Under the pieces are notes generated by a model that was not told the DNA's origin, did no database searches, and saw only the letters and a list, made by a program, of their open reading frames with translations. Made by a program: the position numbers and the translations under genes. A DNA stretch of 64,000 nt. Origin: Candidatus Saccharimonadota bacterium. Its GTDB lineage: Bacteria > Patescibacteriota > Saccharimonadia > Saccharimonadales > Saccharimonadaceae. Location of the stretch: NCBI GenBank assembly GCA_030445265.1, contig JAUCSC010000001.1, positions 310,001-374,000 of the forward strand, written 5' to 3'. Positions 39,266 through 61,612 of the stretch are shown here, one piece after another; position 1 is the first letter of the stretch, and each line of letters opens with the position of its first letter.

Positions 39266-39285
39266 AATCGAAAGGAATGTGCACT

Positions 39286-40407
39286 ATGGATGATATCAAT
39301 ATTAAGCAATTGACGCTCGCGGTGCGCACTATTGCTGAAGAAAAGAACCTACCCGAAGAAACAGTCATGGCTATCATTGAGCAGGCTATTGCTGCTGCGT
39401 GGCGCCGAGATAATGGCGAGCGTGATCAAGAAGTTCGCAGTGAGCTAAATGTTAATGATGGCTCAGCCATCGTCTATGTTGCCCGCGAAGTAGTCGATGA
39501 AGTCGGTAGTGAGGCTCATGAAATTAGTCTTGATGAAGCCCGTAAGATAAAGAAGGATGCTGAGATTGGTGACATCATCGAAGAAAAATTTACCGTCACC
39601 TCATTCGGACGTGTGGCTGCTCAGACAGCCAAGCAGGTGGTGCTCCAACGTCTGCGTGAAGCTGAACGCGAGATTATCCTCGAAGAATATGCTGATAAGA
39701 TTGGCACAGTAGTCAATGGCACCGTGCAACGTGTCGAACCTCGGGTTGTTCGCGTTGAGATCGCCAAAGCCAGTGGTATTATTCCGCAAAGTGAACAGAT
39801 CCAAGGCGAGTACTATAGCGTTGGTAGTCGTATCAAGGTCTACATCAAAGACATTGAGCGCGATAACCGCGGGCCTCAGCTGATTCTTAGCCGCGGCAAC
39901 GAAGCGTTTGTCGAATATCTCTTCCGCCAAGAGGTGCCTGAACTAGAAAGCGGCGCCGTTGAGATTAAAGGTATTGCTCGTGAAGCAGGTCGCCGTACAA
40001 AACTTGCCGTTGCCAGTACTGTACCGGGAGTTGATCCTGTCGGTACGTTCGTCGGCGGTCATGGAACTCGTGTCCAGGCGGTCATGAACGAAATTGGTGA
40101 TCAGGAAAAGATAGACATCATAACCTATGATAAAGATATCATCCAGTTTATCAAAAATGCCCTGAGCCCTGCCGAAGTGAGTAAGGTTGAGATCAAGGAA
40201 GACGATAAGCGAGCTATCGTTCACGTTAACGAGGACCAGCAATCGATAGCCATCGGACGTGGTGGCCAAAACGTTCGGCTTGCTAGTCGTCTGACGGGCT
40301 ATGAAATCGATATTGTACAGGTGACTGCCACCGCTAAACCGGCTGCTCCACGGAAAAACATTGAAGACAGTCTGATTGACGCTTTAGAGAACAACGACAG
40401 CGAATAA
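39286..40407 (+). CDS. nusA: transcription termination/antitermination factor NusA
   Basis: S1 domain and KH domains (REAGRRTKLAVAS, DPVGTFVGGHGTRVQAVMNEIGDQEKIDIITYD, IAIGRGGQNVRLASRLTGYEIDI). Confidence 0.95.
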   Translation: MDDINIKQLTLAVRTIAEEKNLPEETVMAIIEQAIAAAWRRDNGERDQEVRSELNVNDGSAIVYVAREVVDEVGSEAHEISLDEARKIKKDAEIGDIIEEKFTVTSFGRVAAQTAKQVVLQRLREAEREIILEEYADKIGTVVNGTVQRVEPRVVRVEIAKASGIIPQSEQIQGEYYSVGSRIKVYIKDIERDNRGPQLILSRGNEAFVEYLFRQEVPELESGAVEIKGIAREAGRRTKLAVASTVPGVDPVGTFVGGHGTRVQAVMNEIGDQEKIDIITYDKDIIQFIKNALSPAEVSKVEIKEDDKRAIVHVNEDQQSIAIGRGGQNVRLASRLTGYEIDIVQVTATAKPAAPRKNIEDSLIDALENNDSE

Positions 40408-40423
40408 TCACGACATTTATAAA

Positions 40424-40450
40424 TTAGCACTCCATTGACCGGAGTGCTAA
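40424..40450 (+). promoter_or_regulatory. CIRCE operator (HrcA site) upstream of clpC
   Basis: Exact TTAGCACTC-N9-GAGTGCTAA. The N9 contains TTGACC (40435-40440); 17 nt later is TATACT (40458-40463). Confidence 0.95.
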
Positions 40451-40531
40451 TTTTTGTTATACTTTTCTGTAGAGAGTTAGTGAAAAGCAAAATGCTTGCG
40501 CTTTCGATATAGGAGGATAGATAATAGATTT

Positions 40532-43018
40532 ATGGCTGATGAATTTGCGGAATTTATATCCCATCTGACCGATAATGCTCGGACGAGCTTACACCATGCG
40601 ACTGTCATAGCTCAGGGATACGGCAGCCCGTACATCGGTACGGAGCATTTACTATTGGGCGTCATGGCTCAGGGCTCATCTGTCGGGGCTAAAATCCTGG
40701 CAGACGCCGGGGTGACACTCGAAAAAGCCCAAATGGCCTTGAACACCGTGCCGGTTTCAGCGGTGATTGGCAATGTCACGGCGAAGAGTCTGAGTGAAAC
40801 TGCCAAGCTAACGCTAAAGATGAGCTGGGACATTGCTCAGGAATTTCATCAGGATCTTCTCGGTACTGAGCACATCATCTACAGCATATTGTCGCAAAAG
40901 AATGCTCGGGCCACGGTGTTGCTCCGTGACATGAATGTGAACATTGCCGAACTTCTGGCTGAACTAGAAGAATACTTCGATCGGCAAAATGACAACTATA
41001 CTGATGCTGACGCGGACGATGGCGCCGATATTGGCACGAAGAAACAGCCGCGCCGTAAAGGTGCGCTCGAAACATTTGGGACGGACCTCACGGCACGAGC
41101 CCGGGCTGGCGCACTTGACCCAGTGATCGGACGCGCTGAACAAGAAGAGCGAATTGTCACGATACTCAGCCGGCGCACCAAAAACAACCCAGTTCTCATC
41201 GGTGAGCCAGGTGTTGGTAAGACCGCTATTGTTGAGGGTCTCGCGCAGCGAATAGTGAGCGAAGATGTGCCCGAGCACCTACTTGATAGGCGCGTTATCC
41301 AGCTTGATCTCGCTGGCATGATTGCCGGCACTAAATATCGCGGAGAGTTTGAGGAACGGCTGAAGAAAGTCGTGAGCGAGCTGCAAGAACAAAAGAATGT
41401 CATTGTCTTTATTGATGAGCTTCATTTGCTGGTTGGAGCAGGTGCGGCCGAGGGTGCGCTTGACGCAGCCAATATGCTCAAGCCAGCGCTGGCTCGCGGT
41501 GAAATACGGCTGATTGGTGCAACGACACTCGATGAGTACCGTAAACATATTGAGAAAGATACGGCACTTGAGCGCCGCCTGCAAACGATTGTTGTTCCCG
41601 AGCCTCACTTGAAAGATACGGTGGCTATTCTGAAGGGCCTGAAGCCGTATTATGAAAAGCATCACGGCGTCTCGATAGATGATGAAGTGATTGAAGATGC
41701 CGTCTATATGGCTGATCGCTATATAAGTGAACGTTTTATGCCCGACAAAGCCATCGACGTTATTGATGAGGCATCGGCACGAGTACGCGTCAAGGTAGGC
41801 CACAAGCCAAGTAAATATCGTGACTATATGCGCCAGCTGAAGAACCTCAACGAAAAAATGGAAGAAGCCGTCGTCGGCGAAGACTATGAACGGGCTGCTC
41901 TCTATAAGACGCGCATCAGCCAACTGAGTGTTCGGCTTGATGAGCTGAAAGAAGCATACGAGAAAGCGACGCCGATTACGTTAACCGCTGACGACATTGC
42001 TAGTGCTATCTCGACCATGACTGGTATACCGGCCAAACGTGTTCAGAAATCTGAAGCAAAGCTCCTGAGAAATCTTGAGCAGCACCTCGGTAAGTTTATT
42101 ATCGGACAGGAACAGGCAGTGCAACAGGTTTCTCGTGCAATCCGCCGAAGCAGAAGTGGCGTCGCGAGTACCAAGCGGCCGATTGGCTCATTTGTCTTCA
42201 TGGGACCTACTGGTGTTGGTAAGACTGAGCTGGCAAAAGTACTTGCCCGAGAAGTTTTTGGCAGCGATGAGTCGCTCATTAAAATTGATATGAGTGAGTT
42301 CGGTGAACGGCACAATACCAGTCGTTTACTTGGTGCGCCAGCTGGCTATGTTGGCTACGAAGACGGCGGGCAACTGACCGATAAAATCCGTCGCCAACCG
42401 TACAGTGTCGTGTTGTTTGATGAAATCGAGAAAGCTCACCCTGATGTCTTTAATCTGTTGTTGCAGATTATGGAAGACGGATCACTGACCGATGCGAAGG
42501 GTCATAAGGTCGACTTTACGAACGCTATCGTCATCCTGACGAGTAATCTTGGCGCAGATCGGATGATGAAAGAGTCGAGCCTTGGGTTTCACGCCTCCAG
42601 TCGCGATGACGAAAAACAACTTGAAGAAGTCCATAGCGAGAATACGAAGGCCGCCGAAGAGGCACTTTCAACCAGAATGCGCCCAGAGCTCATCAACCGT
42701 TTGGATGCAATCGTCACGTTCCGTGCTTTAACACGAAAGCAAGTTGGTAGGATTTTCGATAATCTTATGAATGAGCTGAGTGACCGACTGATACGAAAGG
42801 GAATTCACCTCGTTATTAAGCCATCTGCTAAGAAGATACTTATCGACAAAGGTCATGATGAGAAGTATGGCGCCCGGCCACTACGCCGCGCGATCCAAGA
42901 TCACTTGGAGCACGTTATTGCCGATGGTATACTATCGGGAGAATATGAAAAGGGTAGCGTACTTATCGTGGCAGCTAAGAAGGGTGAGATACAGGTAACT
43001 GTTGAACATGAGACGTAG
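40532..43018 (+). CDS. clpC: ATP-dependent Clp protease ATP-binding subunit ClpC
   Basis: Clp N domain, two AAA+ modules ([31 protein letters not shown]), short UVR-like middle domain; AGGAGG SD before ATG 40532. Confidence 0.95.
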
Positions 43019-60968: not shown

Positions 60969-60995
60969 TTAGCACTCTATTGAAACGAGTGCTAA
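60969..60995 (+). promoter_or_regulatory. CIRCE operator (HrcA site) upstream of clpP
   Basis: Exact TTAGCACTC-N9-GAGTGCTAA. The N9 contains TTGAAA (60980-60985); 18 nt later is TATAAT (61004-61009). Confidence 0.95.
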
Positions 60996-61015
60996 TTTTG
61001 ATATATAATAGAGTC

Positions 61016-61612
61016 ATGAATAATCCTCGCAACTATCTTGTTCCAACCGTTATTGAAAAAAGCTACGATGGGGAGCGCGCCTTTGATATATACTCGCGCC
61101 TCCTCAACGAGCGCATTATCTTCCTCGGTGAAGACGTCAATGAGCACACCGCGAATATCGTCGTCGCTCAATTGCTTCACCTGGCCTACGCTGATAGCAG
61201 CAAAGACATTAAGCTGTATATTAATAGCCCTGGCGGCAACGTATACGACGGCTTGGCTATCTATGACACCATCCAGTTCATTAAGCCGGACGTCCAGACA
61301 ATTGGTATTGGCCTGCAGGCTAGTATGGGCGCCTTCCTGCTCTCGAGTGGGGCAAAGGGCAAACGCTTTGCGCTGCCAAACAGCCGTATTATGATTCACC
61401 AGCCATCGAGTGGGACGCAGGGAAAAATTAGCGACCAGGAGATTACACTTCGTGAAGGACTCTTCCTCAAGCAGCGACTCAATGAGATCCTCGCCAAGAA
61501 CACTGGCCAAAAACTGTCTAAGATTGAAAAAGATGCTGATAGAGACTTTTGGATGAGCGCCGAAGAAGCAAAAGAGTATGGCCTCATCGACGGACTCATA
61601 GAAAAGGCCTAA
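61016..61612 (+). CDS. clpP: ATP-dependent Clp protease proteolytic subunit
   Basis: [38 protein letters not shown] (Ser), [13 protein letters not shown] (His). Confidence 0.97.

Follow-up and report, generated by a model that had tools for sequence, protein, structure and literature searches.

CIRCE operators interlocked with -35 promoter elements and a predicted HrcA regulon including clpC and clpP in Saccharibacteria

The closest described system to the one reported here is the HrcA/CIRCE regulon, with which it appears to share the operator consensus TTAGCACTC-N9-GAGTGCTAA, the repressor family, the autoregulation of hrcA and the targets dnaK, grpE and dnaJ (PMC3842655, PMC545781). GroE promotes HrcA activity in B. 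subtilis and C. jejuni, and the HrcA of C. jejuni is itself an intrinsic thermosensor, its DNA binding being lost directly with heat (PMC8533110). The Mollicutes are likewise genome-reduced, with HrcA as the main heat-shock repressor and CIRCE at dnaK and at AAA+ chaperone/protease genes (PMC5138195, PMC7737663), and some Mollicutes without GroEL keep hrcA (PMC4221730). In Firmicutes the CtsR (class III) regulon, which covers clpC, clpP, clpE and clpB, serves the same end, clpC and clpP being held under heat-inducible repression. Among open-licence PMC papers, we found no report of HrcA in Saccharibacteria or the Candidate Phyla Radiation.

We analyzed a 64,000-nt stretch of DNA (the window), which sits on a single 645,641-bp contig. 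The nearest named relatives by ClpC are Candidatus Saccharibacteria genomes, as judged from records that may omit the source genome or very near ones. An earlier note on the window had proposed that a CIRCE operator is interlocked with the clpC promoter, which would place clpC under HrcA in place of CtsR.

CIRCE operators at clpC and clpP

The perfect CIRCE claimed for clpC is there: TTAGCACTC-N9-GAGTGCTAA is exact at 40424-40450 (+ strand), a perfect 9-9-9 inverted repeat with 0 mismatches. Read directly, the left arm TTAGCACTC occupies 40424-40432, the spacer CATTGACCG 40433-40441 and the right arm GAGTGCTAA 40442-40450. The coordinates also agree with the promoter geometry given in the earlier note, the -35 hexamer TTGACC (40435-40440, + strand) lying as a whole within the 9-nt spacer and the -10 hexamer TATACT (40458-40463, + strand) following 17 nt from it. 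A TG one base 5' of TATACT makes this an extended -10. The operator lies 81 bp ahead of clpC (40532-43018, + strand, 828 aa), the HSP100 ATPase of the Clp protease, and a Shine-Dalgarno-like AGGAGG was read directly at 40511-40516 (+ strand), 15 nt before the ATG at 40532. The open reading frame encodes a full-length ClpC/HSP100 protein with Clp_N, two AAA modules, a UVR motif and ClpB_D2-small. The gene upstream (39277-40407, + strand, 376 aa), assigned as NusA from its sequence, ends with a stop codon 16 nt before CIRCE.

We detected a second perfect CIRCE in the window, absent from the account in the earlier note, at 60969-60995 (+ strand) ahead of clpP, which encodes the proteolytic subunit (61016-61612, + strand, 198 aa). 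The -35 hexamer TTGAAA (60980-60985, + strand) is again in the CIRCE spacer, and the -10 hexamer TATAAT (61004-61009, + strand) follows at a spacing of 18 nt. This -10 ends 6 nt before the ATG, and the clpP mRNA is therefore probably leaderless. Dinucleotide shuffling gave an expectation of 0.02 CIRCE matches with at most 3 mismatches per 64-kb window, and two perfect copies were observed; a chance match to CIRCE was rejected on the shuffles together with the conservation described below.

The genome-wide site set and its conservation

The scan for all CIRCE sites that the earlier note had proposed returned five sites with at most 3 mismatches in the genome, against one for the reversed control pattern. 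All five precede heat-shock genes, identified by Pfam and NCBIfam: hrcA(-grpE) with 2 mismatches, dnaK with 0, dnaJ with 2, clpC with 0 and clpP with 0. The gene order at the first of these is hrcA, then a small ORF, then grpE. Each spacer holds a -35-like hexamer (TTGACA at hrcA and dnaK, TGGACA at dnaJ, TTGACC at clpC, TTGAAA at clpP). This wiring, which is conserved order-wide, probably places clpC, clpP, dnaK, dnaJ and hrcA under one repressor. HrcA control of clpC, as put forward earlier, is supported; its treatment as a one-promoter case was an underestimate, the arrangement being regulon-wide and lineage-wide.

The start codons lie about 6-8 nt past the -10 at clpP (window 61004-61016), hrcA (locus L006, 2341-2353) and dnaJ (L006, 11448-11456), and the mRNAs of these three genes look leaderless, as do those of many relatives; at clpC and dnaK there is a leader that carries a Shine-Dalgarno-like sequence.

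Within the order, CIRCE with at most 2 mismatches was found in 148/148 sampled genomes, at 1-10 sites per genome, with the reversed control almost always zero, and every one of the 148 also has a clpC match. CIRCE precedes clpC within 500 bp in 72 of 75 loci, a set chosen by best match and family spread, not at random, and comprising the own genome, relatives from most families of the order and six Saccharibacteria or saccharibacterial-type loci of a named collection. A -35 hexamer, in the spacer or at its edge, and a -10, both matching in at least 4 of 6 positions, accompany 59 of these 72 sites, compared with 12.4% in shuffled spacers and flanks. The site recurs before clpC across the order, the -35 usually falling within the spacer, so the interlock of CIRCE and -35 is selected. 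The offset of the -35 in the spacer varies among relatives (0, 1, 2, 4, 5, -1) and the CIRCE arms are fixed, the pattern expected if repressor and polymerase both constrain one piece of DNA. CIRCE persists order-wide across clpC genes that have diverged to about 52% protein identity. Judged by its sequence and recurrence, the clpC site is a real, selected HrcA operator-promoter, at which HrcA binding and heat induction are predicted.

CIRCE was also found ahead of hrcA in 17/17 loci of the order and ahead of clpP in 28/30; in the two clpP loci lacking it, clpP is directly 3' of clpC. At G056:C18 and G075:C3 the two genes are neighbours on the same strand and likely form one operon behind a single CIRCE. 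Elsewhere in the order CIRCE sites were seen at groES/EL, ftsH (L307, L323) and hsp20 (L305, L316, L322), and in one genome (L319) ahead of a gene for a LysE-type translocator. Two CIRCE copies 3-4 nt apart occur at groES/EL in four genomes (G073:C22:26538-26595, G074:C24:7221-7277, G054:C12:46196-46252, G088:C11:15316-15372), and where the groEL strand was checked (G073, G088) the spacer of the first copy contains a TAT-rich, -10-like stretch.

The clpC repeat with its flanks (40421-40458) scores as terminator-like, with a 13-bp stem, a T-rich tail, -18.2 kcal/mol and a z of -7.0. A hairpin with a T-tail 16 nt past the nusA stop codon could mean that the repeat serves mainly to end nusA transcription by intrinsic termination, its resemblance to CIRCE being incidental, a reading that we consider extremely unlikely. 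Chance would hardly produce an exact CIRCE, the clpP CIRCE site does not score as a terminator, and CIRCE is kept at 23 clpC loci with no detected nusA upstream, many of which are covered for just 500 bp upstream. Only 22/49 clpC CIRCE loci preceded by nusA have a T-rich tail (at least 5 T in 8), as do 9/23 of the loci where it was undetected, and relatives do not conserve pairing beyond the CIRCE arms. Termination as the main role was rejected on this lack of conservation of the stem extension and T-run and on the persistence of CIRCE where a nusA homologue was undetected. Dual use of the DNA, as the HrcA operator for clpC and as a terminator of nusA transcripts insulating clpC from read-through, would account for the same hairpin and T-tail and would fit the nusA-clpC order, a nusA homologue lying upstream of clpC in at least 51 of the 75 loci. 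We regard dual use as unlikely, since its terminator features are not conserved in relatives, and it would be a secondary property of the clpC site; a secondary terminator role is possible at this site alone, on the evidence of the predicted hairpin.

We also asked how far the CIRCE-clpC arrangement extends outside the order. Outside Saccharibacteria, 74 clpC loci were examined and CIRCE was found at none, within at most 1.5 kb of upstream sequence (the full 1.4-1.5 kb in 66 loci, shorter in 8), a range beyond which the promoters of long Firmicutes clpC operons may lie. Within that range, the 0/74 result shows no general CIRCE-clpC link across bacteria. Beyond the order, CIRCE lies within 600 bp at 12 of the 40 clpC/clpB-like loci examined; two of the 12 belong to the same class as the order and share the clpC arrangement, and in the rest of the phylum CIRCE lies within 600 bp of 10/38 ClpC/ClpB-like loci, mostly in another geometry. 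A phylum-wide arrangement was likewise rejected, CIRCE being limited to these 12 of 40 loci and the geometry differing in most beyond the class. Having clpC under CIRCE control seems to be a trait of this lineage, the possibility of distant promoters in long Firmicutes operons being kept in mind.

HrcA, CtsR and GroEL

The earlier note had named the lack of an hrcA homologue as what would refute HrcA control. The gene was found at 112852-113565 of contig G000:C1 in the source genome (L006, 2353-3066), behind its own CIRCE. The frame has no internal stops and encodes a protein of 237 aa that matches PF01628 above the cut-off (E 2.9e-17). Its N-terminal winged-helix region aligns to residues 16-99 of T. 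maritima HrcA, 1STZ (E 3.1e-15; profile 1.4e-22), and its C-terminal part covers positions 90-215 of the 215 of PF01628. The best fold match of the predicted structure is also 1STZ, the model being modest with a mean pLDDT of 66.

Compared with the 338-aa family profile, this HrcA lacks an internal segment of roughly 100 aa, a region placed mainly from profile coverage because the structure model is only of modest quality. The 1STZ chain has what we take to be an inserted dimerisation domain, and we infer that the absent segment corresponds to it. The score of 168.8 bits, below the cut-off of 197.2 of the NCBIfam equivalog TIGR00331, is consistent with a missing internal segment, and this shortfall may be the reason that short HrcA proteins are not always named HrcA. 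HrcA was found in 233 of 288 genomes of the phylum, with open frames mostly of 235-280 aa among those listed. The short form (about 235-280 aa) is typical of Saccharibacteria and of most Patescibacteria (L006 2353-3066; L287-L303), and in these too the inserted dimerisation region appears to be missing.

A below-cut-off, shortened HrcA in a genus that has lost GroEL could suggest that the CIRCE sites are relics of a degenerate repressor with little function. Exact operators at 3 of the 5 sites, conserved order-wide across the deeply diverged (~52% identity) clpC genes, argue against this, as do the recurrence of the short form throughout the phylum and an intact, well-conserved hrcA gene in which winged-helix residues are invariant; we hold the relic reading to be most improbable.

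B. subtilis has CtsR, whose box consists of a directly repeated heptanucleotide, A/GGTCAAA/T. CtsR domains were detected in 0/148 (PF05848) and 0/100 (PF17727) genomes of the order, in searches whose control recovered L. lactis and missed B. subtilis. The RGTCAAA direct repeat (at most 2 mismatches) occurred in none of the clpC upstream regions scanned, own genome included, and the upstream neighbour of clpC is nusA, not ctsR-mcsAB. The proposal of HrcA in place of CtsR at clpC is in line with the nusA neighbour and with the CtsR domain searches, which are a soft negative given the missed B. subtilis control. CtsR is the usual clp repressor of Firmicutes (PMC3842655, PMC8336468), and its profile searches had incomplete sensitivity on the controls, so that the chief regulator of clpC could be imagined to be a CtsR-like repressor or some other stress regulator, HrcA playing a minor part, as for dually regulated Firmicutes genes. 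The missing domain matches in the order, the missing box-like repeat in the regions scanned and the lack of an adjoining ctsR-mcsAB make this very unlikely. The soft CtsR negative included, our data support an HrcA regulon predicted to cover Clp genes that CtsR controls in Firmicutes.

Cpn60 gave no match in the source genome (G000) or in four genomes of the same genus, G035, G118, G131 and G147 (98-99% complete); it is present in 130 of the 148 order genomes, and all 14 controls were recovered. CIRCE before groESL is accordingly absent here, groESL being the usual but not obligate target of HrcA/CIRCE. The genus without groEL still keeps hrcA and CIRCE. With no GroEL in the genus, HrcA would therefore have to sense heat itself or via another chaperone. 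We tentatively propose, at somewhat less than an even chance, that in this genus a short HrcA without the inserted dimerisation region may alone, and independently of GroEL, sense heat for the entire chaperone and Clp regulon, and that the textbook GroE-titration model of HrcA control may be inapplicable.

Predicted mechanism and comparison with known regulons

Taken with the observed operator, promoter geometry, hrcA gene, regulon membership and conservation, the clpC site is very probably a functional HrcA operator set in a sigma-70-type promoter, where HrcA would block the -35 and stress would release it. At normal temperature an HrcA dimer on both CIRCE arms would cover the spacer -35 and block RNA polymerase at clpC, and the sister CIRCE sites would impose the same block at clpP, dnaK, dnaJ and hrcA-grpE. 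Under protein-damaging stress HrcA would lose DNA binding, and all five units would be released together. HrcA in Saccharibacteria would in this way perform the Clp-gene repression done by CtsR in Firmicutes, and in the genus without GroEL it would sense stress without a GroE titration cycle, either by being heat-labile itself or through another chaperone. The short HrcA below the cut-off, the soft CtsR negative, the terminator-like hairpin and the GroEL absence are the points against this HrcA-operator model.

The analysis provides a concrete, lineage-wide heat-shock circuit for Saccharibacteria, in which HrcA appears to take over clp genes usually assigned to CtsR. A genus that dropped GroEL and kept HrcA with its operators is a natural test of the need of HrcA activity for GroE.

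The CtsR regulon differs from this circuit in its repressor and operator, neither a CtsR box nor a CtsR gene having been found here. The Mollicutes HrcA has clpB and lon as targets (PMC5138195, PMC7737663), whereas clpC and clpP are the predicted targets here. C. jejuni provides the precedent for heat sensing without chaperonin titration (PMC8533110); it has GroE, which stimulates the binding of HrcA, and HspR as a second repressor, whereas this genus has no GroEL. The known HrcA/CIRCE regulon has groESL as a constant target, absent from this genus, and differs further in that here dnaK and dnaJ each have a CIRCE of their own, clpC and clpP join the predicted targets, every N9 spacer contains the -35, and HrcA falls about 100 aa short of the 338-aa chain of T. 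maritima. The mechanism itself is the known HrcA/CIRCE mechanism; what differs is the gene set with clpC and clpP, the recurrent -35 in the spacer, the short HrcA and the GroEL loss.
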